From Panicum virgatum (lineage: Eukaryota; Streptophyta; Magnoliopsida; Poales; Poaceae), in contig NC_053138.1 in assembly GCF_016808335.1 (NCBI RefSeq), positions 15,865,900 through 15,929,899 of the forward strand: a DNA stretch of 64,000 bases. The letters run 5' to 3'. A model generated the notes under the pieces. It made no database searches. It had not been told where the DNA came from and worked only from the letters and a program-made list of their open reading frames with translations. The translations under genes and the position numbers were made by a program. Positions 19,634 through 50,769 of this stretch are shown in pieces; position 1 is the first letter of the stretch, and each line of letters begins with the position of its first letter.

Positions 19634-19638
19634 CTACA
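19634..19638. repeat. Left target-site duplication CTACA of the array
   Basis: CTACA directly precedes the TG of the leftmost LTR and recurs directly after the CA of the rightmost LTR (50765-50769). No inner LTR is bounded this way. Confidence 0.85.
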
Positions 19639-20771
19639 TGTGACTGAATGTGACGGAACCGCCAATTTAAAACTCTAATTAAGCGTAATGGCCGTCATTT
19701 AAACACATCGGGCGCATTAGCTTAACGACTTAAATTGGCGATCCTTTCGCAACCCACGTCTCGATCGAAACAACACCGGAAGTCCCACGCGAAGGAGGAC
19801 GCAGATGGTACAAACACAACATAATACTAAAAAAAATATAAACACCATATGAGTACAAAACATTAGGTTTTACAACCCGAGTTCACATATACGAATAATT
19901 TACAAGATTTGCATAATTTACAAACTTTACATCCGATGCCCGGAAGTTTTACTAGACTATATCCTACAACTACACTAGCCTGCATAAGCCCTTAATAACC
20001 ATGACTGATCAGTCACAAAAATTGAGGAGCTGCACACTCTACCCTAAGGTGTGCAACCGACCACTCCCTAACCTAGGGGTCTCAGTCTCGCTCCACCACC
20101 TCTCACTCCTCTGCATCCCGGCGGTTGAACTTGATACAGCAGGGGCAGAAGTCAACTTCTGTCTGTTCTGAAAATAATGGTGGCAACAAACCCTGAGTAT
20201 ACTAATACTCAGCAAGGTTTACCCGACCATTGGGTATACTTAGCCCACATAACTAGACATACAAGACTTTTTGGCCGGTGGTTGTTTTTGCGGAAAAACG
20301 CAACTACAAGTGAGTCCTTATTCCCAAGTTTTAGCTTCAATATAGAGTAAACAATTTACTAAGCTCCAATGTTTTGCAAATCTACAACAATCATGGTGAG
20401 CAAACCATTAATTTTTATAATAGTAGTCCACATCTCATCTCAATTTATTACATTTTCCTTGCTACGATGTGACCAAGAGATCAAGGCCCTCATGGCCGCG
20501 AGACACGGCGAATCGATCCGATTTAACCTTGCAAGGTGGACCTAACCAACACGGCACACAAAAGCCCCGTCGGACCCCACGCACCAACCTAACCAGGTCC
20601 GGAGTATCCGGGTAAATCCGGAATTTCCGGATTCATACCCGGAGTATCCGGGTTCCGTTGGCCCCAGGATTTGAAATCGAGTTTTGAGTCGATTTGTGAC
20701 TCGACTTATAACCGAGAGAATTTGGTCACTAGTTACCTAGTTAAACCCAAGTTTAACACATGGTTGTTACA
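19639..20771 (-). repeat. LTR1 (3' outer LTR of the array), internally deleted
   Basis: It is 1133 bp against 2543 bp for the others. The part equal to LTR2 26670-28069 (1400 bp) is gone, with AA left at the junction 20591-20592, and a further 21 bp are missing within the CCGG repeats. The outer end has a 10-bp tandem duplication, TGTGACTGAA then TGTGACGGAA. About a dozen substitutions against the inner LTRs cluster at 19649-19866. Confidence 0.93.
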
Positions 20772-20782
20772 ATATTCCCCCC
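20772..20782 (-). other. Polypurine tract, unit 1
   Basis: The minus strand reads GGGGGGAATAT directly before the TG of LTR1. Confidence 0.8.
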
Positions 20783-20817
20783 AAAAAGAAATCTCGTCCC
20801 GAGATTTAATGGATGTG

Positions 20818-23800
20818 CTAAATTGAGGAAAATGGAACTTGGTGAGTACCTTGATACATTTGTAATAATTCCGGATATTTAGACCGAATGAAGTCCTCCG
20901 TCTCCCAAGTAGCTTCTCGCTCGGAGTGATTACTCCACTGGACCTTATAAAAATTGCTGGTTTGATTCCGAGTAACCCGGGTCTTGTGATCAACAATCCT
21001 TACCGGATGCTCTGGATAAATAAGATCGGGCTCCAGCTGTAAATTTTCCGTATCAACAGCCTCAGTTGGAACTCGGAGGCACTTCTTGAGCTGGGATACA
21101 TGTAAGATATTGTGGACCGCCGATAAATGTGGTGGAAGCTCCACTCGATATGCCACCGGCCCACAACGCTCAACGATAGGAAACGGCCCAACATAGCAGG
21201 GTGCTAGCTTTCCCCATACTCCGAATCATTGAACACCCTTCATTGGAGAGACCCGGAGGTAAACACGATCACCAACTTCAAATATCAGAGGCCAACGTCT
21301 CTTATCTGCATAACTCTTTTGGCGGTATTGAGCGGTTTTCAAATTTGCCTGTATAAGACGAACCTGGTCCTCAGCTTCGCTAACCATATCGGGTCCAAAG
21401 AAGTTCCGTTCACCGGCTTCCGACCAGTTCAATGGAGTTCTACACCTCCGTCCATACAAGGCTTCAAAGGGTGCCATTTTGATACTTTCCTGATAGCTGT
21501 TGTTGTAAGAGAATTCAGCGAGGGGCAGGCACTCATCCCATTTCTTACTATAAGAGAGTACACAGGCCCGCGGCATATCTTCCAAAATCTGATTAATCCT
21601 CTCGGTTTGGCCATCGGTCTGAGGATGATAAGCCGAACTGCGGATCAATTGTGTACCTAAAGCGGCATGGAACTGTTCCCAGAACCGTGCAATGAATTGT
21701 GCCCCATGATCTAAAATAATAGTCTTAGGAATCCCATGGAGACTCACAATACGGTCCATGTACAGTTGAGCATATTGCCTCACCGTATAAGAAGTCTTTA
21801 CCGGAAGAAAATGGGCTACCTTTGTGAGTCGATCAACTATTACCCAAATGGAATCATACCCTTTAGATGTGTTGGGTAGACCGACAATAAAATCCATACT
21901 GATGTCTTCCCACTTTCCTGAAGGAATATTCAGAGGTTGAAACATTCCGGCAGGTTTCAAATGGCTTGGTTTCACCCTCCGGCAAATGTCACATTCTGAT
22001 ACATACTTAGCAATTTCTCGCTTCATCCTCGTCCACCAAAACCTCTGTTTCAAATCTTGGTACATTTTATTGCTGCCCGGGTGGATAGAATACCTAGAGA
22101 GGTGAGCCTCATTAAGAATCTAATTTCGAAGCTCTAAATCTTTAGGTACCACCAATCGATTTTTAAACCAGAGAATTGCCTCACTATCCTGATGGAAGCA
22201 TTGAATCCGAGGATCATTTTCGCCAAGCCTCTGTCTGATCTTGCACATGCCCACATCATTTCTCTGAGCAGCAATAATTTGATCCCGAAGGGTTGGAGTG
22301 AGGGTAATGTTGGTAAGTGTACCCTCAGCTATCATAACTAGATTCAACTTCTCCATTTCTTGGCATAGAGTTGCATGCACAGGTATTGCTGAGGTGCAGT
22401 TGCAATTCACTTTTCTACTTAATGTGTCTGCAACAACGTTGGCTTTGCCCGGGTGATAATGAATCTCCAGATCATAATCTTTAATCAGCTTTAACCACCG
22501 CCTCTGGCGCAAATTTAGCTCCCTCTGGGTAAAGATGTACTTGAGACTCTTATGGTCGGAGTAGATATGTACTGGATTACCCAAGAGATAGTGACGCCAG
22601 ATCTTCAGAGCGTGAACCACTGCGGCTAGCTCCAAATCATGGGTGGCATAATTCTCTTCATGTCGCCTAAGGGCTCTGGAGGCATAAGCAATCACCCGCT
22701 GATCTTGCATGAGAACACAGCCGATCCCCGTGCCTGATGCATCACAATACACATCAAAAGGCCGAGTAACGTCCGGCTAAGCCAAAACAGGGGCCGACGT
22801 CAGTATCTTTCTCAAAGTCTGGAAAGCATGTTCACATTTTTCGTCCCAAACAAACTTCACCCCTTTCTTAATCAATTCCGTCATGGGCCTAGCAATTTTA
22901 GAGAAGTCCGGTACAAACCGGCGATAATAACCTGCTAGCCCAAGAAAACTCCGGATCTCTGGAATGGAGGATTGTACTTTCCAATTCAGGACATCCTGAA
23001 TCTTGCTAGGATCAACAGAAATCCCCTTGTCTGAGATGATGTGGCCCAAGAACTGGACTTCTTTGAGCCAGAAATCACATTTGCTGAATTTAGCATACAG
23101 CTTGTGTTCCCGCAGGCGCTGAAGCACAATGCGGAGATGTTCTGCATGCTCCTCCTCATTCTTGGAGAACACAAGAATGTCATCAATGAAAACTACGACA
23201 AACTTATCTAGCTCAGGCATGAACACTGAGTTCATGAGATACATGAAATGAGCAGGGGCATTTGTCAGCCCGAAAGACATAACCAGATATTCATACAGCC
23301 CGTATCTGGTAGAAAAGGCCGTCTTAGGAATATCTTCTACTCGGATTTTGATCTGATGGTAACCCGAGCGGAGATCAATCTTGGAAAACACCTTGGCCCC
23401 GAACAACTGATCAAACAGGATGTCAATTCGGAGAAGTGGATATTTATTATTAATTGTGACGGCATTTAGAAGTCTATAGTCCACGCACAACCTGAGGCTT
23501 TGATCTTTCTTTTTAACGAAGAGTGTTGGACAGCCCCAGGGCGAAGTGCTAGGACGGATATAGCCTTTATCGAGCAGCTCTTGCAACTGCTTCTTTAATT
23601 CCGCCAGTTCATTGGGTGGCATCCGATAGGGTCTTCTAGAGATGGGTGCCGTGCCCGGTTGCAACTCAATGGCAAACTCCACATTTCGATCCGGTGGCAT
23701 GCCAGGCAAATCATCCGGAAAAACATCCAGGTATTCACACACCACTGATATATCGGCTAGGCTCTTGCCCTCAGTGTGGTGCACAATAGGAGTCATCGAC

Positions 23801-25256
23801 TTATGATTCATCAAAGATAGTGTCATGAACCATGAAGAGGAGAGTTTACGTACACCACATATGATGACGTATCTAGGAGAATCCCATGAAATTTCATCCA
23901 ATTCATTCCAAGAATAATGTCCACTTTCTGAGTTGGCAACATAATCAGATGAGTGTCAAAGATTTTTCCTTGGAATTGCAAAGGTACTTGCTTAACCGTT
24001 TGATTGGTTATTAATTACCCTCCAGGCGAATGGATATTGTACGGAATCGACATATTTCCTATTTCCAATCCAAGTCTAGTAGCACAATCCTTGCTAATGA
24101 ACGTGTGAGATGCCCCAGAATCAAATAATACCGTAATGGGTTGATCGTTTATGGAAAACGTACCCGCCATCACTGGAGCTCCCTCTGGAATGCCCTCGAG
24201 GGTGGTGTAGTGCACTTGCCCCGGCTTGAAATGAGCCATGTTCTGCTTCTGGCTCAGCTGACCGGACTGCTGGCCCTGCTTTGGTGGCATCGGGCAGTTC
24301 CGTGTAAAGTGTCCCAGCTGCCCACAGTTGTAGCACGGGAATAAATTGGGGCGCATCCCCGGCTGCTGCACCCATACTTTCTGCTCACCCTGCTGAGGAA
24401 CAGGAGGTCTGGTTGTCCCCTGTGATGATGTGTACTGAGGGGGCCTGTATCCCCACTGCTGTTGTGGCTGGTGCTGAAAAGGGGCTCTCTGTGGGCCCGA
24501 CTGCACCAAGCGAAACCTCTGGGGAGTGCTACTTGAAGATCCCGCTGCCGGCGGCTTTCTTTTCTTCTCTACCTTGTGAGCTAGGTGGGCGTCCTCCTGA
24601 ATGATAGCCCCATTGACTAGCTCACTGAAAGTGTCAAACTTGACCATTGCCAGGCGATCCTGGAGCTTACTGCTAAGCCCCTGCCGGAAACACGCCTGCT
24701 TCTTCTCATCAGTGTCTACATGGTACCCGGCATATTGTGACAAAGTGTTGAAGGCCTGAGAGTACTGCAGGACACTGCTGTTACCCTGTTTCAGGGCCAA
24801 GAACTCTGTGAGCTTCCTGCGAATGACCCTTGCAGGAATGTGATATGCTCTAAAGGCGTTCTTGAACTCCGCCCAGCTGAATTGAGTGCCCGCCGGAAAT
24901 GTAGCCACATAATTGTCCCACCATGTGCGAGTAGGGCCCCTAAGCTGCTAGGCGGCAAATCCTGTCTTGTCCCCATCATTGTACGGGTGCAGGGTGAATT
25001 TGGACTCTATGGTCCGGAGCCAGCTGTCTGCTTCCAGCGACTCATCTGCTTTGTGAAATAACGGCGGTTGGGTGCTCAGAAATTGCTCATATCCAGGAAT
25101 AGGTGGCCGGTGGTGATGCTCAGGCTGCGGCGCTCTGCCCTGCGCCACAAGTTCACGGAGGAGTGCCGTCTGCTCATCGCGCCCAGTGAGCATGGCCGCA
25201 ATGGCCTAAGCCAACTCAGGAGGGTTCGGTGGCTCTCCCATTCTGCATTCAACCAT
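20818..25256 (-). pseudogene. gag-pol of array unit 1, multiple premature stops
   Basis: Read on the minus strand from an ATG at 25256 to the natural end at 20818. Domains in order: gag (to about 24150) with the zinc knuckle CYNCGQLGHFTRNC, protease DSGASHTF (near 24110), reverse transcriptase FIDD (near 23190), RNase H YCDASGTG (near 22745), integrase with CDIC and the DDE core (21990-21550), and chromodomain (about 21010-20850). In-frame stops are at 25206-25208, 24948-24950, 24015-24017, 22777-22779, 22120-22122 and 21226-21228, and there is one frameshift near 23822 between protease and reverse transcriptase. No long intact product is possible. The same breaks occur in units 2-4. Confidence 0.93.
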
Positions 25257-25358
25257 GGTTGAATTAGTCCCAAAAATTTTGATTACAAGCAATCAACCAT
25301 GGAAGAAGGCAGAAAGCGCAATTTAAATCAAAAAGCCGGAACTCTTTTTGCAACTAAA

Positions 25359-25438
25359 TCCGGACTATCCGGATTTTCACCCGGAATATCCGGGTACCCC
25401 CACCCAGAATATCCGGAACTATATCCGGAGTATCCGGA
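25359..25438. repeat. CCGG(A)-TATCCGG palindrome cluster in the untranslated leader (unit 1)
   Basis: Short near-palindromes such as TCCGGACTATCCGGA, CCGGAATATCCGGG and TCCGGAGTATCCGGA follow each other between the primer site and gag. The same cluster occurs one period further right in each unit (near 32858, 40356 and 47854). Confidence 0.75.
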
Positions 25439-25712
25439 TATTCATATCACGTTTACATTGTTCCCACCCACTAAATGCAAGAATCCTTTTAAATCAATGA
25501 ATGGCATGATGCACAATGCATGATCGTCCTACGGTAACCTCTCAGCCCCAACCCAACAATCTAGCTACAACTCTAACATTAGCTATATAGGGCTATTACG
25601 ATTAACCCCCGCCCACACTACTAAATAACATTTTGCCTTAAGTCGAAGTTTTATTTTTAAGTCGTAAAAACCTTAAAACTAGTCATGCTCGTACCATCCC
25701 CAGTGCGTTTCG

Positions 25713-25724
25713 GCTCTGATACCA
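25713..25724 (-). other. Primer-binding site, unit 1 (initiator tRNA-Met)
   Basis: The minus strand reads TGGTATCAGAGC two bases after the LTR end, complementary to the 3' end of plant initiator tRNA-Met. Confidence 0.9.
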
Positions 25725-25726
25725 GC

Positions 25727-28269
25727 TGTGACAGAACCGCCAAATTAAAACTCTAATTAAGCGTAATGGCCGTCATTTGAACACATTGGGTGCATTAGCT
25801 TAACGGCTTAATTTGGCGATTCTTTCGCAACCCACGTCCCGATCGAAACAACACCGGAAGTCCCACGCGAAGGAGGGCGCAGATGGTACAAGCACAACAT
25901 AATACTAAAAAAATATATAAACACCATATGAATACAAAATATTAGGTTTTACAACCCGAGTTCACATATACGAATAATTTACAAGATTTGCATAATTTAC
26001 AAACTTTACATCCGATGCCCGGAAGTTTTACTAGACTATATCCTACAACTACACTAGCCTGCATAAGCCCTTAATAACCATGACTGATCAGTCACAAAAA
26101 TTGAGGAGCTGCACACTCTACCCTAAGGTGTGCAACCGACCACTCCCTAACCTAGGGGTCTCAGTCTCGCTCCACCACCTCTCACTCCTCTGCATCCCGG
26201 CGGATGAACTTGATACAGCAGGGGCAGAAGTCAACTTCTGTCTGTTCTGAAAATAATGGTGGCAACAAACCCTGAGTATACTAATACTCAGCAAGGTTTA
26301 CCCGACCATTGGGTATACTTAGCCCACATAACTAGACATACAAGACTTTTTGGCCGGTGGTTGTTTTTGCGGAAAAACGCAACTACAAGTGAGTCCTTAT
26401 TCCCAAGTTTTAGCTTCAATATAGAGTAAACAATTTACTAAGCTCCAATGTTTTGCAAATCTACAACAATCATGGTGAGCAAACCATTAATTTTTATAAT
26501 AGTAGTCCACATCTCATCTCAATTTATTACATTTTCCTTGCTACGATGTGACCAAGAGATCAAGGCCCTCATGGCCGCGAGACACGGCGAATCGATCCGA
26601 TTTAACCTTGCAAGGTGGACCTAACCAACACGGCACACAAAAGCCCCGTCGGACCCCACGCACCAACCTTTCCCCTCCCCGCCTCGAACTACAGAACCGC
26701 CCCACCTACATATAGTCAGTCGAGCTCAACGTGAGACCACCAAAAGTAAACATATGCATCTCATTTCTTCGCGACTACTCGACTCGCCCTAAGGGGTGGT
26801 GATGAAGTTCTGTACTTTCGAAGCAAGGCAGTACTCGGCTTGCCGGTTTCGACTACCTCCTACTCCCGGCATGCGGTTAGTACAATTCAATCCCCGATCA
26901 GCACAGCCGACAACAGAACGGTCCTTAATCAACACAGATGTGGCTATACCTTCTCCCATCCGGTCTCCCATCCCTTACCTTCCATCTCGAATATAATAAA
27001 GCACATACTGTAATATAAGGACATCCTATATCTCGCGAGTGATAGAATTATCACTCGACTTCTATCGAGCCCTATTAAGCATAGCAGTGCTAACGACCTA
27101 TTCATACTAGTATGAGGCCCAGGAAAAACTAGGAATCATGCAACTAAGGTTTCAACCAATTCCTAAATCTAATGCACAAATATTAGAGACATATATAGAT
27201 GACATAATTTAAAATATTAGGATGTGCACCGGGGCTTGCCTTGAGTCTGCGGCTCCGTGCTAGGGTGAGATGGGCCTTGGACTTGCTCCTCACGATCCTC
27301 CTGCTGCGGGGCTTGCCCCTGCGGCTCCTGTGGCTCCGCAACCACCTCGTATACGACTCCTTCAGCGGCGGCGTCTATACGTATGCATATGACATGAGAA
27401 TGTATGCAATATAATTTGAAACTTTGAAATAAACCTTAACCACTTACAAATACTACTAACCACACAACCCGACGTTCATAACTCTGCAAAACCGGAATAT
27501 CCGGATTTAAATCCGGAATATCCGGATTCCCAAATCCGGAGTTTCCGGGGCTATACCCGGAGTTTCGCCCGGAGTGTCAAAAACCCGGAGTATCCGGGCT
27601 TATACCCGGAGTCTCCGGACCCGACAGCATTTTTCGCCCCAAAAACTGAAATCATGATCTCTAGCAAAAATCAACCCACAAAAATCGAAACCCTCCTAGA
27701 CCCTAGTAGAGTGATTCATAAGAAGATGACTAACCGGAGGAAATCGATTTAAACCCCCTAGAACAAGTGCCTTGCCAAACCCTAGCTTATTTACCTTGGG
27801 GCGAGCTCTTCCTTGCACCAAGAGCTTGAACTCAAGCCGCCCATGGAAGGAGCATGCGGGAGAGATGATCCACCACCCAATTGAAGCTCCCTTGGCCTTG
27901 GATCAAGGGTAGAGGGAGGGTTTTGGGTCTCTAGGGTTTGGGGTGAGAGAGAGCACGAGAGAGAGTGAGAGAGCATGGGAGAGAGTGAGAGAGAGAGCAC
28001 GGGAGAGAGTGAATAATGTTTTATAACGTTTGGGAATAGCAAAAGGACCAAAACATGAGATATAAAGTTCCAGGTCCGGAGTATCCGGAAGAATATCCGG
28101 AGTATCCGGGTAAATCCGGAATTTCCGGATTCATACCCGGAGTATCCGGGTTCCGTTGGCCCCAGGATTTGAAATCGAGTTTTGAGTCGATTTGTGACTC
28201 GACTTATAACCGAGAGAATTTGGTCACTAGTTACCTAGTTAAACCCAAGTTTAACACATGGTTGTTACA
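25727..28269 (-). repeat. LTR2 (inner LTR, shared by units 1 and 2)
   Basis: 2543 bp, TG...CA ends. It acts as 5' LTR for unit 1 and 3' LTR for unit 2. It has no flanking target duplication; the unit 1 primer site adjoins one side and the unit 2 polypurine tract the other. It contains CCGG palindrome clusters (27492-27620, 28075-28150) and a GA-rich stretch (27946-28012). Confidence 0.95.
27492..28150. repeat. Two CCGG palindrome clusters in LTR2
   Basis: Clusters at 27492-27620 and 28075-28150 carry about ten variants of CCGGANTATCCGG. Equivalent clusters lie in LTR3, LTR4 and LTR5; LTR1 keeps only part of the second (20597-20652), having lost the first in its deletion. Confidence 0.75.
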
Positions 28270-28280
28270 ATATTCCCCCC
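28270..28280 (-). other. Polypurine tract, unit 2
   Basis: GGGGGGAATAT on the minus strand, adjoining LTR2. Confidence 0.8.
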
Positions 28281-28315
28281 AAAAAGAAATCTCGTCCCGA
28301 GATTTAATGGATGTG

Positions 28316-31300
28316 CTAAATTGAGGAAAATGGAACTTGGTGAGTACCTTGATACATTTGTAATAATTCCGGATATTTAGACCGAATGAAGTCCTCCGTC
28401 TCCCAAGTAGCTTCTCGCTCGGAGTGATTACTCCACTGGACCTTATAAAAATTGCTGGTTTGATTCCGAGTAACCCGGGTCTTGTGATCAACAATCCTTA
28501 CCGGATGCTCTGGATAAATAAGATCGGGCTCCAGCTGTAAATTTTCCGTATCAACAGCCTCAGTTGGAACTCGGAGGCACTTCTTGAGCTGGGATACATG
28601 TAAGATATTGTGGACCGCCGATAAATGTGGTGGAAGCTCCACTCGATATGCCACCGGCCCACAACGCTCAACGATAGGAAACGGCCCAACATAGCAGGGT
28701 GCTAGCTTTCCCCATACTCCGAATCATTGAACACCCTTCATTGGAGAGACCCGGAGGTAAACACGATCACCAACTTCAAATATCAGAGGCCAACGTCTCT
28801 TATCTGCATAACTCTTTTGGCGGTATTGAGCGGTTTTTCAAATTTGCCTGTATAAGACGAACCTGGTCCTCAGCTTCGCTAACCATATCGGGTCCAAAGA
28901 AGTTCCGTTCACCGGCTTCCGACCAGTTCAATGGAGTTCTACACCTCCGTCCATACAAGGCTTCAAAGGGTGCCATTTTGATACTTTCCTGATAGCTGTT
29001 GTTGTAAGAGAATTCAGCGAGGGGCAGGCACTCATCCCATTTCTTACTATAAGAGAGTACACAGGCCCGCGGCATATCTTCCAAAATCTGATTAATCCTC
29101 TCGGTTTGGCCATCGGTCTGAGGATGATAAGCCGAACTGCGGATCAATTGTGTACCTAAAGCGGCATGGAACTGTTCCCAGAACCGTGCAATGAATTGTG
29201 CCCCATGATCTAAAATAATAGTCTTAGGAATCCCATGGAGACTCACAATACGGTCCATGTACAGTTGAGCATATTGCCTCACCATATAAGAAGTCTTTAC
29301 CGGAAGAAAATGGGCTACCTTTGTGAGTCGATCAACTATTACCCAAATGGAATCATACCCTTTAGATGTGTTGGGTAGACCGACAATAAAATCCATACTG
29401 ATGTCTTCCCACTTTCCTGAAGGAATATTCAGAGGTTGAAACATTCCGGCAGGTTTCAAATGGCTTGGTTTCACCCTCCGGCAAATGTCACATTCTGATA
29501 CATACTTAGCAATTTCTCGCTTCATCCTCGTCCACCAAAACCTCTGTTTCAAATCTTGGTACATTTTATTGCTGCCCGGGTGGATAGAATACCTAGAGAG
29601 GTGAGCCTCATTAAGAATCTAATTTCGAAGCTCTAAATCTTTAGGTACCACCAATCGATTTTTAAACCAGAGAATTGCCTCACTATCCTGATGGAAGCAT
29701 TGAATCCGAGGATCATTTTCGCCAAGCCTCTGTCTGATCTTGCACATGCCCACATCATTTCTCTGAGCAGCAATAATTTGATCCCGAAGGGTTGGAGTGA
29801 GGGTAATGTTGGTAAGTGTACCCTCAGCTATCATAACTAGATTCAACTTCTCCATTTCTTGGCATAGAGTTGCATGCACAGGTATTGCTGAGGTGCAGTT
29901 GCAATTCACTTTTCTACTTAATGTGTCTGCAACAACGTTGGCTTTGCCCGGGTGATAATGAATCTCCAGATCATAATCTTTAATCAGCTTTAACCACCGC
30001 CTCTGGCGCAAATTTAGCTCCCTCTGGGTAAAGATGTACTTGAGACTCTTATGGTCGGAGTAGATATGTACTGGATTACCCAAGAGATAGTGACGCCAGA
30101 TCTTCAGAGCGTGAACCACTGCGGCTAGCTCCAAATCATGGGTGGCATAATTCTCTTCATGTCGCCTAAGGGCTCTGGAGGCATAAGCAATCACCCGCTG
30201 ATCTTGCATGAGAACACAGCCGATCCCCGTGCCTGATGCATCACAATACACATCAAAAGGCCGAGTAACGTCCGGCTAAGCCAAAACAGGGGCCGACGTC
30301 AGTATCTTTCTCAAAGTCTGGAAAGCATGTTCACATTTTTCGTCCCAAACAAACTTCACCCCTTTCTTAATCAATTCCGTCATGGGCCTAGCAATTTTAG
30401 AGAAGTCCGGTACAAACCGGCGATAATAACCTGCTAGCCCAAGAAAACTCCGGATCTCTGGAATGGAGGATTGTACTTTCCAATTCAGGACATCCTGAAT
30501 CTTGCTAGGATCAACAGAAATCCCCTTGTCTGAGATGATGTGGCCCAAGAACTGGACTTCTTTGAGCCAGAAATCACATTTGCTGAATTTAGCATACAGC
30601 TTGTGTTCCCGCAGGCGCTGAAGCACAATGCGGAGATGTTCTGCATGCTCCTCCTCATTCTTGGAGAACACAAGAATGTCATCAATGAAAACTACGACAA
30701 ACTTATCTAGCTCAGGCATGAACACTGAGTTCATGAGATACATGAAATGAGCAGGGGCATTTGTCAGCCCGAAAGACATAACCAGATATTCATACAGCCC
30801 GTATCTGGTAGAAAAGGCCGTCTTAGGAATATCTTCTACTCGGATTTTGATCTGATGGTAACCCGAGCGGAGATCAATCTTGGAAAACACCTTGGCCCCG
30901 AACAACTGATCAAACAGGATGTCAATTCGGAGAAGTGGATATTTATTATTAATTGTGACGGCATTTAGAAGTCTATAGTCCACGCACAACCTGAGGCTTT
31001 GATCTTTCTTTTTAACGAAGAGTGTTGGACAGCCCCAGGGCGAAGTGCTAGGACGGATATAGCCTTTATCGAGCAGCTCTTGCAACTGCTTCTTTAATTC
31101 CGCCAGTTCATTGGGTGGCATCCGATAGGGTCTTCTAGAGATGGGTGCCGTGCCCGGTTGCAACTCAATGGCAAACTCCACATTTCGATCCGGTGGCATG
31201 CCAGGCAAATCATCCGGAAAAACATCCAGGTATTCACACACCACTGATATATCGGCTAGGCTCTTGCCCTCAGTGTGGTGCACAATAGGAGTCATCGACT

Positions 31301-33211: not shown

Positions 33212-33223
33212 GCTCTGATACCA
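33212..33223 (-). other. Primer-binding site, unit 2
   Basis: TGGTATCAGAGC on the minus strand, two bases from LTR3; identical to unit 1. Confidence 0.9.
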
Positions 33224-33225
33224 GC

Positions 33226-35768: not shown

Positions 35769-35779
35769 ATATTCCCCCC
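35769..35779 (-). other. Polypurine tract, unit 3
   Basis: GGGGGGAATAT on the minus strand, adjoining LTR3. Confidence 0.8.
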
Positions 35780-35814
35780 AAAAAGAAATCTCGTCCCGAG
35801 ATTTAATGGATGTG

Positions 35815-38800: not shown

Positions 38801-40253
38801 TGATTCATCAAAGATAGTGTCATGAACCATGAAGAGGAGAGTTTACGTACACCACATATGATGACGTATCTAGGAGAATCCCATGAAATTTCATCCAATT
38901 CATTCCAAGAATAATGTCCACTTTCTGAGTTGGCAACATAATCAGATGAGTGTCAAAGATTTTTCCTTGGAATTGCAAAGGTACTTGCTTAACCGTTTGA
39001 TTGGTTATTAATTACCCTCCAGGCGAATGGATATTGTACGGAATCGACATATTTCCTATTTCCAATCCAAGTCTAGTAGCACAATCCTTGCTAATGAACG
39101 TGTGAGATGCCCCAGAATCAAATAATACCGTAATGGGTTGATCGTTTATGGAAAACGTACCCGCCATCACTGGAGCTCCCTCTGGAATGCCCTCGAGGGT
39201 GGTGTAGTGCACTTGCCCCGGCTTGAAATGAGCCATGTTCTGCTTCTGGCTCAGCTGACCGGACTGCTGGCCCTGCTTTGGTGGCATCGGGCAGTTCCGT
39301 GTAAAGTGTCCCAGCTGCCCACAGTTGTAGCACGGGAATAAATTGGGGCGCATCCCCGGCTGCTGCACCCATACTTTCTGCTCACCCTGCTGAGGAACAG
39401 GAGGTCTGGTTGTCCCCTGTGATGATGTGTACTGAGGGGGCCTGTATCCCCACTGCTGTTGTGGCTGGTGCTGAAAAGGGGCTCTCTGTGGGCCCGACTG
39501 CACCAAGCGAAACCTCTGGGGAGTGCTACTTGAAGATCCCGCTGCCGGCGGCTTTCTTTTCTTCTCTACCTTGTGAGCTAGGTGGGCGTCCTCCTGAATG
39601 ATAGCCCCATTGACTAGCTCACTGAAAGTGTCAAACTTGACCATTGCCAGGCGATCCTGGAGCTTACTGCTAAGCCCCTGCCGGAAACACGCCTGCTTCT
39701 TCTCATCAGTGTCTACATGGTACCCGGCATATTGTGACAAAGTGTTGAAGGCCTGAGAGTACTGCAGGACACTGCTGTTACCCTGTTTCAGGGCCAAGAA
39801 CTCTGTGAGCTTCCTGCGAATGACCCTTGCAGGAATGTGATATGCTCTAAAGGCGTTCTTGAACTCCGCCCAGCTGAATTGAGTGCCCGCCGGAAATGTA
39901 GCCACATAATTGTCCCACCATGTGCGAGCAGGGCCCCTAAGCTGCTAGGCGGCAAATCCTGTCTTGTCCCCATCATTATACGGGTGCAGGGTGAATTTGG
40001 ACTCTATGGTCCGGAGCCAGCTGTCTGCTTCCAGCGACTCATCTGCTTTGTGAAATAACGGCGGTTGGGTGCTCAGAAATTGCTCATATCCAGGAATAGG
40101 TGGCCGGTGGTGATGCTCAGGCTGCGGCGCTCTGCCCTGCGCCACAAGCTCACGGAGGAGTGCCGTCTGCTCATCGCGCCCAGTGAGCATGGCCGCAATG
40201 GCCTAAGCCAACTCAGGAGGGTTCGGTGGCTCTCCCATTCTGCATTCAACCAT
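35815..40253 (-). pseudogene. gag-pol of array unit 3, multiple premature stops
   Basis: It has the same domains, stops and frameshift as unit 1. Private or shared variants: A at 36782 (integrase, Met codon, as in unit 2), C at 39929 and C at 40149 (gag, as in unit 4), and A at 39978 (seen only here). Confidence 0.93.
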
Positions 40254-40709
40254 GGTTGAATTAGTCCCAAAAATTTTGATTACAAGCAATCAACCATGGA
40301 AGAAGGCAGAAAGCGCAATTTAAATCAAAAAGCCGGAACTCTTTTTGCAACTAAATCCGGACTATCCGGATTTTCACCCGGAATATCCGGGTACCCCCAC
40401 CCAGAATATCCGGAACTATATCCGGAGTATCCGGATATTCATATCACGTTTACATTGTTCCCACCCACTAAATGCAAGAATCCTTTTAAATCAATGAATG
40501 GCATGATGCACAATGCATGATCGTCCTACGGTAACCTCTCAGCCCCAACCCAACAATCTAGCTACAACTCTAACATTAGCTATATAGGGCTATTACGATT
40601 AACCCCCGCCCACACTACTAAATAACATTTTGCCTTAAGTCGAAGTTTTATTTTTAAGTCGTAAAAACCTTAAAACTAGTCATGCTCGTACCATCCCCAG
40701 TGCGTTTCG

Positions 40710-40721
40710 GCTCTGATACCA
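40710..40721 (-). other. Primer-binding site, unit 3
   Basis: TGGTATCAGAGC on the minus strand, two bases from LTR4. Confidence 0.9.
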
Positions 40722-40723
40722 GC

Positions 40724-43266
40724 TGTGACAGAACCGCCAAATTAAAACTCTAATTAAGCGTAATGGCCGTCATTTGAACACATTGGGTGCATTAGCTTAA
40801 CGGCTTAATTTGGCGATTCTTTCGCAACCCACGTCCCGATCGAAACAACACCGGAAGTCCCACGCGAAGGAGGGCGCAGATGGTACAAGCACAACATAAT
40901 ACTAAAAAAATATATAAACACCATATGAATACAAAATATTAGGTTTTACAACCCGAGTTCACATATACGAATAATTTACAAGATTTGCATAATTTACAAA
41001 CTTTACATCCGATGCCCGGAAGTTTTACTAGACTATATCCTACAACTACACTAGCCTGCATAAGCCCTTAATAACCATGACTGATCAGTCACAAAAATTG
41101 AGGAGCTGCACACTCTACCCTAAGGTGTGCAACCGACCACTCCCTAACCTAGGGGTCTCAGTCTCGCTCCACCACCTCTCACTCCTCTGCATCCCGGCGG
41201 ATGAACTTGATACAGCAGGGGCAGAAGTCAACTTCTGTCTGTTCTGAAAATAATGGTGGCAACAAACCCTGAGTATACTAATACTCAGCAAGGTTTACCC
41301 GACCATTGGGTATACTTAGCCCACATAACTAGACATACAAGACTTTTTGGCCGGTGGTTGTTTTTGCGGAAAAACGCAACTACAAGTGAGTCCTTATTCC
41401 CAAGTTTTAGCTTCAATATAGAGTAAACAATTTACTAAGCTCCAATGTTTTGCAAATCTACAACAATCATGGTGAGCAAACCATTAATTTTTATAATAGT
41501 AGTCCACATCTCATCTCAATTTATTACATTTTCCTTGCTACGATGTGACCAAGAGATCAAGGCCCTCATGGCCGCGAGACACGGCGAATCGATCCGATTT
41601 AACCTTGCAAGGTGGACCTAACCAACACGGCACACAAAAGCCCCGTCGGACCCCACGCACCAACCTTTCCCCTCCCCGCCTCGAACTACAGAACCGCCCC
41701 ACCTACATATAGTCAGTCGAGCTCAACGTGAGACCACCAAAAGTAAACATATGCATCTCATTTCTTCGCGACTACTCGACTCGCCCTAAGGGGTGGTGAT
41801 GAAGTTCTGTACTTTCGAAGCAAGGCAGTACTCGGCTTGCCGGTTTCGACTACCTCCTACTCCCGGCATGCGGTTAGTACAATTCAATCCCCGATCAGCA
41901 CAGCCGACAACAGAACGGTCCTTAATCAACACAGATGTGGCTATACCTTCTCCCATCCGGTCTCCCATCCCTTACCTTCCATCTCGAATATAATAAAGCA
42001 CATACTGTAATATAAGGACATCCTATATCTCGCGAGTGATAGAATTATCACTCGACTTCTATCGAGCCCTATTAAGCATAGCAGTGCTAACGACCTATTC
42101 ATACTAGTATGAGGCCCAGGAAAAACTAGGAATCATGCAACTAAGGTTTCAACCAATTCCTAAATCTAATGCACAAATATTAGAGACATATATAGATGAC
42201 ATAATTTAAAATATTAGGATGTGCACCGGGGCTTGCCTTGAGTCTGCGGCTCCGTGCTAGGGTGAGATGGGCCTTGGACTTGCTCCTCACGATCCTCCTG
42301 CTGCGGGGCTTGCCCCTGCGGCTCCTGTGGCTCCGCAACCACCTCGTATACGACTCCTTCAGCGGCGGCGTCTATACGTATGCATATGACATGAGAATGT
42401 ATGCAATATAATTTGAAACTTTGAAATAAACCTTAACCACTTACAAATACTACTAACCACACAACCCGACGTTCATAACTCTGCAAAACCGGAATATCCG
42501 GATTTAAATCCGGAATATCCGGATTCCCAAATCCGGAGTTTCCGGGGCTATACCCGGAGTTTCGCCCGGAGTGTCAAAAACCCGGAGTATCCGGGCTTAT
42601 ACCCGGAGTCTCCGGACCCGACAGCATTTTTCGCCCCAAAAACTGAAATCATGATCTCTAGCAAAAATCAACCCACAAAAATCGAAACCCTCCTAGACCC
42701 TAGTAGAGTGATTCATAAGAAGATGACTAACCGGAGGAAATCGATTTAAACCCCCTAGAACAAGTGCCTTGCCAAACCCTAGCTTATTTACCTTGGGGCG
42801 AGCTCTTCCTTGCACCAAGAGCTTGAACTCAAGCCGCCCATGGAAGGAGCATGCGGGAGAGATGATCCACCACCCAATTGAAGCTCCCTTGGCCTTGGAT
42901 CAAGGGTAGAGGGAGGGTTTTGGGTCTCTAGGGTTTGGGGTGAGAGAGAGCACGAGAGAGAGTGAGAGAGCATGGGAGAGAGTGAGAGAGAGAGCACGGG
43001 AGAGAGTGAATAATGTTTTATAACGTTTGGGAATAGCAAAAGGACCAAAACATGAGATATAAAGTTCCAGGTCCGGAGTATCCGGAAGAATATCCGGAGT
43101 ATCCGGGTAAATCCGGAATTTCCGGATTCATACCCGGAGTATCCGGGTTCCGTTGGCCCCAGGATTTGAAATCGAGTTTTGAGTCGATTTGTGACTCGAC
43201 TTATAACCGAGAGAATTTGGTCACTAGTTACCTAGTTAAACCCAAGTTTAACACATGGTTGTTACA
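40724..43266 (-). repeat. LTR4 (inner LTR, shared by units 3 and 4)
   Basis: 2543 bp; again indistinguishable by eye from LTR2 and LTR3. It is bounded by the unit 3 primer site and the unit 4 polypurine tract. Confidence 0.95.
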
Positions 43267-43277
43267 ATATTCCCCCC
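43267..43277 (-). other. Polypurine tract, unit 4
   Basis: GGGGGGAATAT on the minus strand, adjoining LTR4. Confidence 0.8.
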
Positions 43278-43312
43278 AAAAAGAAATCTCGTCCCGAGAT
43301 TTAATGGATGTG

Positions 43313-46300
43313 CTAAATTGAGGAAAATGGAACTTGGTGAGTACCTTGATACATTTGTAATAATTCCGGATATTTAGACCGAATGAAGTCCTCCGTCTCC
43401 CAAGTAGCTTCTCGCTCGGAGTGATTACTCCACTGGACCTTATAAAAATTGCTGGTTTGATTCCGAGTAACCCGGGTCTTGTGATCAACAATCCTTACCG
43501 GATGCTCTGGATAAATAAGATCGGGCTCCAGCTGTAAATTTTCCGTATCAACAGCCTCAGTTGGAACTCGGAGGCACTTCTTGAGCTGGGATACATGTAA
43601 GATATTGTGGACCGCCGATAAATGTGGTGGAAGCTCCACTCGATATGCCACCGGCCCACAACGCTCAACGATAGGAAACGGCCCAACATAGCAGGGTGCT
43701 AGCTTTCCCCATACTCCGAATCATTGAACACCCTTCATTGGAGAGACCCGGAGGTAAACACGATCACCAACTTCAAATATCAGAGGCCAACGTCTCTTAT
43801 CTGCATAACTCTTTTGGCGGTATTGAGCGGTTTTCAAATTTGCCTGTATAAGACGAACCTGGTCCTCAGCTTCGCTAACCATATCGGGTCCAAAGAAGTT
43901 CCGTTCACCGGCTTCCGACCAGTTCAATGGAGTTCTACACCTCCGTCCATACAAGGCTTCAAAGGGTGCCATTTTGATACTTTCCTGATAGCTGTTGTTG
44001 TAAGAGAATTCAGCGAGGGGCAGGCACTCATCCCATTTCTTACTATAAGAGAGTACACAGGCCCGCGGCATATCTTCCAAAATCTGATTAATCCTCTCGG
44101 TTTGGCCATCGGTCTGAGGATGATAAGCCGAACTGCGGATCAATTGTGTACCTAAAGCGGCATGGAACTGTTCCCAGAACCGTGCAATGAATTGTGCCCC
44201 ATGATCTAAAATAATAGTCTTAGGAATCCCATGGAGACTCACAATACGGTCCATGTACAGTTGAGCATATTGCCTCACCGTATAAGAAGTCTTTACCGGA
44301 AGAAAATGGGCTACCTTTGTGAGTCGATCAACTATTACCCAAATGGAATCATACCCTTTAGATGTGTTGGGTAGACCGACAATAAAATCCATACTGATGT
44401 CTTCCCACTTTCCTGAAGGAATATTCAGAGGTTGAAACATTCCGGCAGGTTTCAAATGGCTTGGTTTCACCCTCCGGCAAATGTCACATTCTGATACATA
44501 CTTAGCAATTTCTCGCTTCATCCTCGTCCACCAAAACCTCTGTTTCAAATCTTGGTACATTTTATTGCTGCCCGGGTGGATAGAATACCTAGAGAGGTGA
44601 GCCTCATTAAGAATCTAATTTCGAAGCTCTAAATCTTTAGGTACCACCAATCGATTTTTAAACCAGAGAATTGCCTCACTATCCTGATGGAAGCATTGAA
44701 TCCGAGGATCATTTTCGCCAAGCCTCTGTCTGATCTTGCACATGCCCACATCATTTCTCTGAGCAGCAATAATTTGATCCCGAAGGGTTGGAGTGAGGGT
44801 AATGTTGGTAAGTGTACCCTCAGCTATCATAACTAGATTCAACTTCTCCATTTCTTGGCATAGAGTTGCATGCACAGGTATTGCTGAGGTGCAGTTGCAA
44901 TTCACTTTTCTACTTAATGTGTCTGCAACAACGTTGGCTTTGCCCGGGTGATAATGAATCTCCAGATCATAATCTTTAATCAGCTTTAACCACCGCCTCT
45001 GGCGCAAATTTAGCTCCCTCTGGGTAAAGATGTACTTGAGACTCTTATGGTCGGAGTAGATATGTACTGGATTACCCAAGAGATAGTGACGCCAGATCTT
45101 CAGAGCGTGAACCACTGCGGCTAGCTCCAAATCATGGGTGGCATAATTCTCTTCATGTCGCCTAAGGGCTCTGGAGGCATAAGCAATCACCCGCTGATCT
45201 TGCATGAGAACACAGCCGATCCCCGTGCCTGATGCATCACAATACACATCAAAAGGCCGAGTAACGTCCGGCTAAGCCAAAACAGGGGCCGACGTCAGTA
45301 TCTTTCTCAAAGTCTGGAAAGCATGTTCACATTTTTCGTCCCAAACAAACTTCACCCCTTTCTTAATCAATTCCGTCATGGGCCTAGCAATTTTAGAGAA
45401 GTCCGGTACAAACCGGCGATAATAACCTGCTAGCCCAAGAAAACTCCGGATCTCTGGAATGGAGGATTGTACTTTCCAATTCAGGACATCCTGAATCTTG
45501 CTAGGATCAACAGAAATCCCCTTGTCTGAGATGATGTGGCCCAAGAACTGGACTTCTTTGAGCCAGAAATCACATTTGCTGAATTTAGCATACAGCTTGT
45601 GTTCCCGCAGGCGCTGAAGCACAATGCGGAGATGTTCTGCATGCTCCTCCTCATTCTTGGAGAACACAAGAATGTCATCAATGAAAACTACGACAAACTT
45701 ATCTAGCTCAGGCATGAACACTGAGTTCATGAGATACATGAAATGAGCAGGGGCATTTGTCAGCCCGAAAGACATAACCAGATATTCATACAGCCCGTAT
45801 CTGGTAGAAAAGGCCGTCTTAGGAATATCTTCTACTCGGATTTTGATCTGATGGTAACCCGAGCGGAGATCAATCTTGGAAAACACCTTGGCCCCGAACA
45901 ACTGATCAAACAGGATGTCAATTCGGAGAAGTGGATATTTATTATTAATTGTGACGGCATTTAGAAGTCTATAGTCCACGCACAACCTGAGGCTTTGATC
46001 TTTCTTTTTAACGAAGAGTGTTGGACAGCCCCAGGGCGAAGTGCTAGGACGGATATAGCCTTTATCGAGCAGCTCTTGCAACTGCTTCTTTAATTCCGCC
46101 AGTTCATTGGGTGGCATCCGATAGGGTCTTCTAGAGATGGGTGCCGTGCCCGGTTGCAACTCAATGGCAAACTCCACATTTCGATCCGGTGGCATGCCAG
46201 GCAAATCATCCGGAAAAACATCCAGGTATTCACACACCACTGATATATCGGCTAGGCTCTTGCCCTCAGTGTGGTGCACAATAGGAGTCATCGACTTATG

Positions 46301-47751
46301 ATTCATCAAAGATAGTGTCATGAACCATGAAGAGGAGAGTTTACGTACACCACATATGATGACGTATCTAGGAGAATCCCATGAAATTTCATCCAATTCA
46401 TTCCAAGAATAATGTCCACTTTCTGAGTTGGCAACATAATCAGATGAGTGTCAAAGATTTTTCCTTGGAATTGCAAAGGTACTTGCTTAACCGTTTGATT
46501 GGTTATTAATTACCCTCCAGGCGAATGGATATTGTACGGAATCGACATATTTCCTATTTCCAATCCAAGTCTAGTAGCACAATCCTTGCTAATGAACGTG
46601 TGAGATGCCCCAGAATCAAATAATACCGTAATGGGTTGATCGTTTATGGAAAACGTACCCGCCATCACTGGAGCTCCCTCTGGAATGCCCTCGAGGGTGG
46701 TGTAGTGCACTTGCCCCGGCTTGAAATGAGCCATGTTCTGCTTCTGGCTCAGCTGACCGGACTGCTGGCCCTGCTTTGGTGGCATCGGGCAGTTCCGTGT
46801 AAAGTGTCCCAGCTGCCCACAGTTGTAGCACGGGAATAAATTGGGGCGCATCCCCGGCTGCTGCACCCATACTTTCTGCTCACCCTGCTGAGGAACAGGA
46901 GGTCTGGTTGTCCCCTGTGATGATGTGTACTGAGGGGGCCTGTATCCCCACTGCTGTTGTGGCTGGTGCTGAAAAGGGGCTCTCTGTGGGCCCGACTGCA
47001 CCAAGCGAAACCTCTGGGGAGTGCTACTTGAAGATCCCGCTGCCGGCGGCTTTCTTTTCTTCTCTACCTTGTGAGCTAGGTGGGCGTCCTCCTGAATGAT
47101 AGCCCCATTGACTAGCTCACTGAAAGTGTCAAACTTGACCATTGCCAGGCGATCCTGGAGCTTACTGCTAAGCCCCTGCCGGAAACACGCCTGCTTCTTC
47201 TCATCAGTGTCTACATGGTACCCGGCATATTGTGACAAAGTGTTGAAGGCCTGAGAGTACTGCAGGACACTGCTGTTACCCTGTTTCAGGGCCAAGAACT
47301 CTGTGAGCTTCCTGCGAATGACCCTTGCAGGAATGTGATATGCTCTAAAGGCGTTCTTGAACTCCGCCCAGCTGAATTGAGTGCCCGCCGGAAATGTAGC
47401 CACATAATTGTCCCACCATGTGCGAGCAGGGCCCCTAAGCTGCTAGGCGGCAAATCCTGTCTTGTCCCCATCATTGTACGGGTGCAGGGTGAATTTGGAC
47501 TCTATGGTCCGGAGCCAGCTGTCTGCTTCCAGCGACTCATCTGCTTTGTGAAATAACGGCGGTTGGGTGCTCAGAAATTGCTCATATCCAGGAATAGGTG
47601 GCCGGTGGTGATGCTCAGGCTGCGGCGCTCTGCCCTGCGCCACAAGCTCACGGAGGAGTGCCGTCTGCTCATCGCGCCCAGTGAGCATGGCCGCAATGGC
47701 CTAAGCCAACTCAGGAGGGTTCGGTGGCTCTCCCATTCTGCATTCAACCAT
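43313..47751 (-). pseudogene. gag-pol of array unit 4, multiple premature stops
   Basis: It has the same domains, stops and frameshift as unit 1. It carries G at 44280 (integrase, Thr codon, as in unit 1) with C at 47427 in gag (as in unit 3), and T at 47824 in the 5' leader (only here). Confidence 0.93.
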
Positions 47752-48207
47752 GGTTGAATTAGTCCCAAAAATTTTGATTACAAGCAATCAACCATGGAAG
47801 AAGGCAGAAAGCGCAATTTAAATTAAAAAGCCGGAACTCTTTTTGCAACTAAATCCGGACTATCCGGATTTTCACCCGGAATATCCGGGTACCCCCACCC
47901 AGAATATCCGGAACTATATCCGGAGTATCCGGATATTCATATCACGTTTACATTGTTCCCACCCACTAAATGCAAGAATCCTTTTAAATCAATGAATGGC
48001 ATGATGCACAATGCATGATCGTCCTACGGTAACCTCTCAGCCCCAACCCAACAATCTAGCTACAACTCTAACATTAGCTATATAGGGCTATTACGATTAA
48101 CCCCCGCCCACACTACTAAATAACATTTTGCCTTAAGTCGAAGTTTTATTTTTAAGTCGTAAAAACCTTAAAACTAGTCATGCTCGTACCATCCCCAGTG
48201 CGTTTCG

Positions 48208-48219
48208 GCTCTGATACCA
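48208..48219 (-). other. Primer-binding site, unit 4
   Basis: TGGTATCAGAGC on the minus strand, two bases from LTR5, the true 5' LTR of the insertion. Confidence 0.9.
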
Positions 48220-48221
48220 GC

Positions 48222-50764
48222 TGTGACAGAACCGCCAAATTAAAACTCTAATTAAGCGTAATGGCCGTCATTTGAACACATTGGGTGCATTAGCTTAACG
48301 GCTTAATTTGGCGATTCTTTCGCAACCCACGTCCCGATCGAAACAACACCGGAAGTCCCACGCGAAGGAGGGCGCAGATGGTACAAGCACAACATAATAC
48401 TAAAAAAATATATAAACACCATATGAATACAAAATATTAGGTTTTACAACCCGAGTTCACATATACGAATAATTTACAAGATTTGCATAATTTACAAACT
48501 TTACATCCGATGCCCGGAAGTTTTACTAGACTATATCCTACAACTACACTAGCCTGCATAAGCCCTGAATAACCATGACTGATCAGTCACAAAAATTGAG
48601 GAGCTGCACACTCTGCCCTAAAGTGTGCAACCGACCACTCCCTAACCTAGGGGTCTCAGTCTCGCTCCACCACTTCCCACCCCTCTGCATCCCGGCGGAT
48701 GAACTTGATACAGCAGGGGCAGAAGTCAACTTCTGTCTGTTCTGAAAATAATGGTGGCAACAAACCCTGAGTATACTAATACTCAGCAAGGTTTACCCGA
48801 CCATTGGGTATACTTAGCCCACATAACTAGACATACAAGACTTTTTGGCCGGTGGTTGTTTTTGCGGAAAAACGCAACTACAAGTGAGTCCTTATTCCCA
48901 AGTTTTAGCTTCAATATAGAGTAAACAATTTACTAAGCTCCAATGTTTTGCAAATCTACAACAATCATGGTGAGCAAACCATTAATTTTTATAATAGTAG
49001 TCCACATCTCATCTCAATTTATTACATTTTCCTTGCTACGATGTGACCAAGAGATCAAGGCCCTCATGACCGCGAGACACGGCGAATCGATCCGATTTAA
49101 CCTTGCAAGGTGGACCTAACCAACACGGCACGCAAAAGCCCCGTCGGACCCCACGCACCAACCTTTCCCCTCCCCGCCTCGAACTACAGAACCGCCCCAC
49201 CTACATATAGTCAGTCGAGCTCAACGTGAGACCACCAAAAGTAAACATATGCATCCCATTTCTCCGCGACTACTCGACTCGCCCTAAGGGGTGGTGATGA
49301 AGTTCTGTACTTTCAAAGCAAGGCAGTACTCGGCTTGCCGGTTTTGACTACCTCCTACTCCCGACATGCGGTTAGTACAATTCAATCCCCGATTAGCACA
49401 GCCGACAACAGAACGGTCCTTAATCAACACAGGTGGGGCTATACCTTCTCCCATCCGGTCTCCCATCCCTTACCTTCCATCTCGAATATAATAAAGCACA
49501 TACTGTAATATAAGGACATCCTATATCTCGCGAGTGATAGAATTATCACTCGACTTCTATCAATCCCTATTAAGCATAGCAGTGCTAACGACCTATTCAT
49601 ACTAGTATGAGGCCCAGGAAAAACTAGGAATCATGCAACTAAGGTTTCAACCAATTCCTAAATCTAATGCACAAATATTAGAGACATATATAGATGACAT
49701 AATTTAAAATATTAGGATGTGCACCGGGGCTTGCCTTGAGTCTGCGGCTCCGTGCTAGGGTGAGATGGGCCTTGGACTTGCTCCCCACGATCCTCCTGCT
49801 GCGGGGCTTGCCCCTGCGGCTCCTGTGGCTCCGCAACCACCTCGTATACGACTCCTTCAGCAGCGGCGTCTATACGTATGCATATGACATGAGAATGTAT
49901 GCAATATAATTTGAAACTTTGAAATAAACCTTAACCGCTTACAAATACTACTAACCACACAACCCGACGTTCATAACTCTGCAAAACCGGAATATCCGGA
50001 TTTAAATCCGGAATATCCGGATTCCCAAATCCGGAGTTTCCGGGGCTATACCCGGAGTTTCGCCCGGAGTGTCAAAAACCCGGAGTATCCGGGCTTATAC
50101 CCGGAGTCTCCGGACCCGACAGCATTTTTCGCCCCAAAAACTGAAACCGTGATTTCTAGCAAAAATCAACCCACAAAAATCGAAACCCTCCTAGACCCTA
50201 GTAGAGTGATTCATAAGAAGATGACTAACCGGAGGAAATCGATTTAAATCCCCTAGAACAAGTGACTTGCCAAACCCTAGCTTATTTACCTTGGGGCGAG
50301 CTCTTCCTTGCACCAAGAGCTTGAACTCAAGCCGCCCATGGAAGGAGCACGCGGGAGAGATGATCCACCACCCAATTAAAGCTCCCTTGGCCTTGGATCA
50401 AGGGTAGAGGGAGGGTTTTGGGTCTCTAGGGTTTGGGGTGAGAGAGAGAGCACGAGAGAGAGTGAGAGAACACGAGAGAGAGTGAGAGAGAGCACGGGAG
50501 AGAGTGAATAATGTTTTATAACGTTTGGGAACAGCAAAAGGACCAAAACATGAGATATAAAGTTCCAGGTCCGGAGTATCCGAAAGAATATCCGGAGTAT
50601 CCAGGTAAATCCAGAATTTCCGGATTCATACCCGGAGTATCCGGGTTCCGTTGGCTCCAGGATTTGAAATCGAGTTTTGAGTCGATTTGTGACTCGACTT
50701 GTAACCGAGAGAATTTGGTCACTAGTTACCTAGTTAAACCCAAGTTTAACACATGGGTGTTACA
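48222..50764 (-). repeat. LTR5 (5' outer LTR of the array)
   Basis: 2543 bp. The first 345 bp (48222-48566) equal the inner LTRs. From 48567 on there are about 30 differences, e.g. around 48615, 48673, 49068, 49255 and 49561. It is followed directly by the right target duplication. Confidence 0.94.
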
Positions 50765-50769
50765 CTACA
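50765..50769. repeat. Right target-site duplication CTACA of the array
   Basis: CTACA lies directly after the terminal CA of LTR5 and matches 19634-19638. Confidence 0.85.

Follow-up and report, generated by a model that had tools for sequence, protein, structure and literature searches.

The window discussed here is the whole 64,000-nucleotide stretch of Panicum virgatum DNA that we analysed (C3:15865900-15929899). Between positions 19634 and 50769 of this window lies a tandem array of retrotransposon DNA, in which five LTRs alternate with four internal regions, an LTR closes both ends and every unit is on the minus strand (Table 1). The original prediction had described just such an array, with a single orientation and a period of 7498-7499 bp. 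Self-comparison of this assembly returned it at those coordinates, with offsets of 7498/7499, 14996/14997 and 22495. The internal regions are 4955 bp long in units 1, 3 and 4 and 4956 bp in unit 2. The array is real in this assembly, although four units may be an assembly count.

CTACA had been predicted to stand outside the first and last LTRs only, and so it does: it flanks the outer ends and is found at 0 of the 8 inner LTR boundaries, so that no unit has a target duplication of its own. The five bases before the four inner LTR starts are CCAGC, and the five after the four inner LTR ends are ATATT. Nested insertions were rejected as an origin on the absence of inner duplications. The alternation of LTRs and internal regions with an LTR at both ends, together with a perfect 5-nt outer target duplication and none inside, are the features by which tandem LTR retrotransposons are recognised in PMC11899658. 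The array had also been called unusually complete. That description is too strong, since LTR1, at 1133 bp, is much shorter than the 2543 bp of the others. Relative to LTR2, LTR1 lacks 912 and 507 bp, with 7 bases remaining at the join, and the first 10 bp of its outer tip are duplicated with one base altered.

Table 1. Features of the tandem array, in window positions
Feature	Positions	Strand	Basis
Left target-site duplication CTACA	19634..19638	.	Sequence; 5-bp duplications at 5 other family places
LTR1, outer, element's 3' end, ~1.4 kb internal deletion, 10-bp tip duplication	19639..20771	-	
Internal region 1: gag, protease, RT, RNase H, integrase, chromodomain pieces	20772..25726	-	
Unit 1 chromodomain and integrase C-terminal part	20818..21225	-	Pfam Chromo 42.2 bits, SH3_Tf2-1 69.6 bits
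Unit 1 integrase stretch	21226..22119	-	Integrase_H2C2 41.4 bits, over cut-off (part 21226-22065)
Unit 1 RNase H stretch	22120..22776	-	
Unit 1 reverse transcriptase stretch	22777..23955	-	RVT_1 122.7 bits (part 22777-23901)
Unit 1 gag and protease stretch	24015..24947	-	Profile matches (part 24015-24908) and frame
Primer-binding site adjoining LTR2	25713..25724	-	Sequence
LTR2, mosaic inner LTR, 2543 bp	25727..28269	-	
Putative exchange-point interval, LTR5-type to LTR1-type	LTR2 25940..26072; LTR3 33439-33571; LTR4 40937-41069	.	
Internal region 2, I3-type left/I1-type right mosaic, one private inserted base	28270..33225	-	
LTR3, identical to LTR2	33226..35768	-	
Internal region 3	35769..40723	-	
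LTR4, identical to LTR2	40724..43266	-	
Internal region 4	43267..48221	-	
LTR5, outer, element's 5' end, full length	48222..50764	-	
Right target-site duplication CTACA	50765..50769	.	Sequence

Pfam profiles match the minus strand in the order gag, protease, RT, RNase H, integrase and chromodomain. Judged by this order, which is that of a Ty3/gypsy chromovirus, and by the chromodomain that follows the integrase, the element is of the chromodomain-bearing Ty3/gypsy kind. The zinc-binding match of the integrase exceeds its Pfam cut-off; the match to the integrase core (rve) in unit 1 (21226-22065) scores 28.6 bits, below the cut-off of 32.6. At the primer-binding site, the bases beside the LTR are TGGTATCAGAGC, which we take to match the plant initiator-Met tRNA primer-site type. 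When a related element at the window's left edge is used as the reference, the matched frames of each of the four units are broken by 5 in-frame stops and one change of frame, with one further frameshift in unit 2. The ends of the reading frames repeat at the unit period, and the internal regions vary at only six places. Since the same broken frames recur in all four units, the element either had this defect before its units multiplied or was born with it. The window also contains a PsaH reading frame; scans with Rfam and for tRNAs found nothing in it.

The inner LTRs as mosaics of the outer two

The original prediction had suggested aligning all five LTRs and four internal regions. LTR2, LTR3 and LTR4 are identical over 2543 bp, but the LTRs are not all equally alike. 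When the two outer LTRs are aligned directly, 26 of 1123 sites differ (K2P 0.0236); a gap-tolerant alignment through LTR2, which handles the deletion in LTR1, gives 28. One of these 28 sits at the deletion junction and was dropped, leaving 27 at which to ask which outer LTR the inner ones resemble. The inner LTRs match LTR5 at the first 13 sites (LTR2 positions 7-214) and LTR1 at 13 of the remaining 14 (positions 346-2536; the exception is 478). A single switch thus fits 26 of 27 sites, and 3 of 1,000,000 shuffles fitted one switch in the same direction equally well. The last LTR5-type site, 214, and the first LTR1-type site, 346, bound the interval in which the switch falls. This is what unequal exchange predicts: an inner LTR should take its left side from the right outer LTR and its right side from the left outer LTR.

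We polarised the differences against 25 LTR loci of the family outside the array, from among 37 non-array matches listed. Polarity follows the majority state and is weakest at site 7 (14 G, 4 A, 1 C). It covers the 22 sites of the first 943 bp, some copies being without some of the sites, as distinct from five sites past position 2381 and from 25 in the part deleted from LTR1. The state that the inner LTRs share with LTR5 is derived at six sites (7, 61, 65, 95, 206 and 214), and the state they share with LTR1 is derived at seven (346, 394, 401, 456, 460, 848 and 911). The LTR1 state is the derived one at 18, 53, 80, 86, 113, 151 and 166. Site 453 is derived in LTR5 only, and site 478, the misfit of the mosaic, in LTR1 only. 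Among the 25 other LTRs, five of these 13 shared states (206, 214, 394, 460 and 848) are absent and four (95, 346, 456 and 911) turn up once, which makes nine that are present in one other LTR or none. The shared derived states at 7, 61, 65 and 401 are found in two to four other copies, with 3, 2 and 3 such copies for the letters at 61, 65 and 401. Most likely, then, the inner LTRs join mutations that arose separately in the two outer LTRs, a pattern not expected of an insertion that was already tandem.

Differences between LTR1 and LTR5 are concentrated in the first 214 bp, where there are 13, more than elsewhere. Once polarised, these 13 divide 7 to 6 between the LTR1 and LTR5 lineages, which suggests a fast region; conversion may be an alternative source. 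The inner-LTR DNA that matches the part deleted from LTR1 probably did not come from LTR5. In that part, the inner LTRs differ from LTR5 at 25 sites, and LTR1 was for this reason likely still whole at the time of the exchange.

The lone outer duplication is not decisive by itself, because a concatemer inserted whole also gives a single duplication, an argument made in PMC1950507. Such a concatemer would arise during reverse transcription, either because the template switched between co-packaged RNAs or because a one-LTR circle had been transcribed, and be inserted by integrase. It accounts for the single 5-bp duplication equally well, and PMC11899658 keeps it as a possibility. PMC1950507 takes an outer duplication combined with similar outer LTRs as the mark of template switching in complex elements of Triticeae, rice and maize, and the array has both (CTACA and a K2P of 0.0236). 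The inner LTRs of such a concatemer should, however, be free of later mutations of the outer LTRs, and here we see six and seven shared derived states. Its parts should also be of equal age, whereas the inner LTRs are identical, the internal regions 0.02-0.08% apart and the outer LTRs 2.4% apart. We rejected insertion of a concatemer on the polarised mosaic, and consider it extremely unlikely.

Recombination between insertions is the usual origin given for complex elements in PMC1950507, where chimeric inner LTRs without matching duplications are its mark. Two or more separate insertions recombined together would produce chimeric inner LTRs at this locus too. They would also be expected to leave differing outer duplications and to have lost the DNA between them, but CTACA is the same at both ends and both flanks continue at a second locus on C12. 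This origin was rejected on the single matching outer duplication, and we give it next to no credence. Compared with the complex elements of PMC1950507, the array is alike in having at least three LTRs, one outer duplication and similar outer LTRs. It is unlike the template-switching elements there in that its inner LTRs bear derived mutations of both outer LTRs, and the two diagnostics of that source therefore fail to separate the mechanisms.

Probable growth of the array and its timing

The four internal regions (I1 to I4) carry a second, smaller record. Five substitutions and one inserted base account for all their variation, and any two of them differ at 1-4 of 4955 sites (0.02-0.08%). Ancestral states came from eight stretches of the family, two of which (L026 and L048) are one place, so that seven distinct stretches informed four of the sites and three stretches informed position 1015. 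The comparison copies agree with one another, save for one copy with a third base at 4559. The derived A at 1015 belongs to I2 and I3, the derived T at both 4162 and 4382 to I1 and I2, the derived A at 4211 to I3 and the derived T at 4559 to I4. I2 is a mosaic, I3-type on its left and I1-type on its right, in the same direction as the LTR mosaic. This direction is the expectation for an unequal exchange that adds a unit, with the left from the right-hand partner and the right from the left-hand one. The left side of the I2 mosaic is marked by one site, 1015, where recurrent mutation or conversion is possible.

These variants also bear on the assembly itself. An assembler might have multiplied one or two units, or stitched two haplotypes together, and either would be compatible with an exchange origin of a shorter array. 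The units are 99.9% alike, and the presumed source plant is outbred, its assembly having been pruned to one haplotype according to PMC7886653. We nevertheless think an artefact unlikely. The units carry distinct, ordered variants, and duplicating the reads of a simple element would not produce the LTR mosaic. Mean reads of about 20-30 kb, computed from the read count, coverage and corrected-read yield in PMC7886653, make spanning reads plausible. No second haplotype of the left flank was found in the assembly, where the flank has two matches only, the array locus and its homoeologue.

The polarised LTR mosaic, and internal regions far less diverged than the outer LTRs, support the proposal in the original prediction of one insertion followed by growth as DNA. 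Both are what copying as DNA should leave once the outer LTRs have accumulated differences, and a concatemer inserted in one piece would be expected to show neither. Given that all three inner LTRs combine the outer two in one and the same way, we regard it as very probable that the array grew from one ordinary insertion whose LTRs diverged and then recombined out of register.

The history probably ran as follows. One chromodomain-bearing Ty3/gypsy element would have inserted on the minus strand, presumably in a single event, making the CTACA duplication that we see. Its LTRs, A (now LTR1) and B (now LTR5), would then have mutated separately to give the differences observed between them. A misaligned exchange between sister chromatids or homologues would next have fused the left of B to the right of A, at LTR positions 214-346, yielding A-int-(B/A)-int-B and the mosaic now present. 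At least two further unequal exchanges would have lengthened the array and multiplied the mosaic LTR. Of these, one probably fell inside the internal region, at positions 1015-4162, because the left of I2 follows I3 and its right follows I1. LTR1 would have lost its ~1.4 kb afterwards. In the simplest such history, the step from one unit to two took place in the LTR, that from two to three left no trace, and that from three to four fell within the internal region.

Exchange may have taken several forms, and sister chromatids, homologues, conversion with crossover and an excised circle all fit. The circle, in its explicit version, would have been excised by LTR-LTR recombination with one B/A mosaic LTR, perhaps as a multimer, and re-entered a sister copy by homologous recombination. 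The same mosaic at every inner LTR, identical inner LTRs and no new duplication are its predictions, and all are seen; the formation of circles from yeast Ty LTRs is the topic of PMC4751563. Yet re-entry needs two events where one suffices, and successive exchanges explain the pattern of internal variants without a circle, which leaves this route very unlikely.

We return, then, to unequal exchange after a single insertion, and to when it took place. At an assumed rate of 1.3e-8 substitutions per site per year, the LTR1-LTR5 distance would correspond to about 0.9 million years. To the right of the exchange, LTR1 and LTR2 differ at 1/598 and 0/171 sites (two blocks). LTR2 and LTR5 differ at 0/345 sites to its left and at 38/2196 to its right. 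By these figures and the 1-4 differences between internal regions, growth of the array is likely much younger than the insertion, with an age in the range of tens of thousands of years at the same rate. Homogenisation among the units could make growth seem too young.

The second locus, on C12, is 82-91% identical to the window. It matches the left flank at 89% over 3.6 kb and the right flank at 83-91% in three main pieces. No family DNA was found in this homoeologous stretch, and the element is absent from it. At the target, C12 carries about 200 bp of different sequence together with a local duplication; it thus shows absence of the element rather than the exact letters before insertion. By this comparison, the element likely inserted after the two subgenomes had split, an event dated to about 6.7 Ma in PMC7886653; the LTR1-LTR5 distance is consistent with this order. 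Alternatively, the element may have been lost on C12.

The array is a by-product of recombination, and we infer no function for it. A larger claim, towards which we remain tentative and slightly on the doubting side, is that a satellite-like repeat has been caught here at its birth: three exchanges in order would have turned a dead retrotransposon into a tandem array, and for two of them the parents and break intervals would be readable. By the same claim, duplication-bounded tandem LTR elements, which have in part been put down to template switching, could form after insertion, and an LTR-mosaic test could sort origins genome-wide.

Comparable arrays and relatives in the genome

Plants commonly carry LTR retrotransposons in tandem. 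For a rice pangenome, PMC11899658 counts 266 tandem candidates, with Tekay elements enriched, and leaves their origin undecided. The loci described there resemble ours in their alternating LTRs and internal regions, shared inner LTRs, 5-nt outer duplication and lack of inner duplications; they are mostly gypsy, and the array here is Ty3/gypsy too. The two loci detailed in that study have two internal regions each and ours has four. Where that work leaves the origin undecided, the polarised LTR mosaic here points to exchange after insertion.

The Cassandra and Wukong TRIM arrays (PMC7215508, PMC4528315) likewise have several LTRs alternating with an internal domain. Wukong arrays have up to seven LTRs and some Cassandra or Wukong arrays exceed the present one; unequal crossing over is one of the mechanisms put forward for them. 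Those elements are short and non-coding, whereas the array here has 2.5-kb LTRs and a 5-kb internal region derived from coding sequence. Maize CRM1TR and CRM4TR (PMC3648361) are similar in being tandem repeats from one Ty3/gypsy parent. In that source, their growth is proposed to follow a break in an LTR repaired from the other LTR of the sister chromatid. Their monomers are LTR-UTR fragments in long (peri)centromeric arrays; ours are whole units, in four copies.

At this locus the origin can be read from sequence, because the outer LTRs differ sufficiently for the parents of the inner ones to be told apart. The mosaic test, which looks for derived states of the right outer LTR on the left and of the left outer LTR on the right, could be applied to every tandem locus in long-read genomes. 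It comes with a caution: outer LTRs and a target duplication alone are insufficient for inferring the origin of tandem loci. Among the titles and abstract beginnings that we searched (most subscription journals lay outside them), we found no announcement of a polarised mosaic of LTRs in a tandem array bounded by one duplication, and we claim no priority.

The family has left other traces in the genome. We searched with internal-LTR-internal DNA and scored 40 of 7688 candidates; all counts are lower bounds. Among these 40, the full internal-LTR-internal arrangement was seen at the three inner LTRs of the array and at C11:36405705-36408575, a place that has three stretches of each kind, internal and LTR, with an interruption in one LTR and with its ends cut. 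C18:76837375-76851696 reads LTR-internal-interrupted LTR-internal piece, and C9:2036268-2046722, a more distant relative, reads LTR-internal-LTR-internal piece. The family thus has at least three further tandems, all degraded by truncation or interruption. The C9 and C18 pieces are 97-99% alike within each place and closer to one another than to the array in every compared pair; those on C11 are mostly closer to one another (94-98%) than to the array, the shortest LTR pieces excepted.

We also examined nine LTRs without matched internal DNA (on either side or in part), six with both ends and three cut at one end. Four of the six both-ended ones have perfect 5-bp duplications (ACCAG, GTCTG, TGTAG and TTGTT) and two (L052 and L054) are without; a simple C13 element is flanked on both sides by GCGTG. 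Because LTRs without internal DNA but with perfect duplications occur alongside the tandem places, the family displays both outcomes of LTR-LTR exchange, deletion and duplication.

Reading the LTR comparisons

Simple mismatch counts between LTR5, the full-length outer LTR, and the inner LTRs are too high because a GA-rich stretch in LTR5 (50440-50507) is offset by two bases relative to its inner counterparts (27943-28012 in LTR2). The outer tip of LTR1 carries a 10-bp tandem duplication with one base changed (19639-19658), which the other LTRs of the array lack.

Surroundings of the array

On its left the array has a DOG1-domain reading frame and on its right one for PsaH (photosystem I), which places it in a gene-bearing region. 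The array is followed, 2.3 kb to the right, by a diverged minisatellite with about 49 copies of its unit at 53226-54311.

Related elements

Kin of the array's element, with two long open frames, lies at the left edge of the window. Further in, at 6124-7122, are stretches of about 70-73% likeness to the array's LTR. Elsewhere in the genome, we found three more tandem arrangements of LTRs, all broken, which belong either to this element's family or to one related to it.

Features around the array (window positions) and elsewhere in the assembly (chromosome:positions)
Feature	Location	Strand	Remarks
Related chromodomain Ty3/gypsy element	28-4417 and about 6124-7122	+	open frames; LTR likeness
DOG1-domain reading frame	14709-15404		about 4 kb left of array
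Diverged minisatellite, 22-bp unit	53114-54468
PsaH reading frame	61616-62320		about 11 kb right of array
Broken tandem LTR structure	C11:36402572-36419603
Broken tandem LTR structure	C18:76837375-76851696
Broken tandem LTR structure	C9:2036268-2046722
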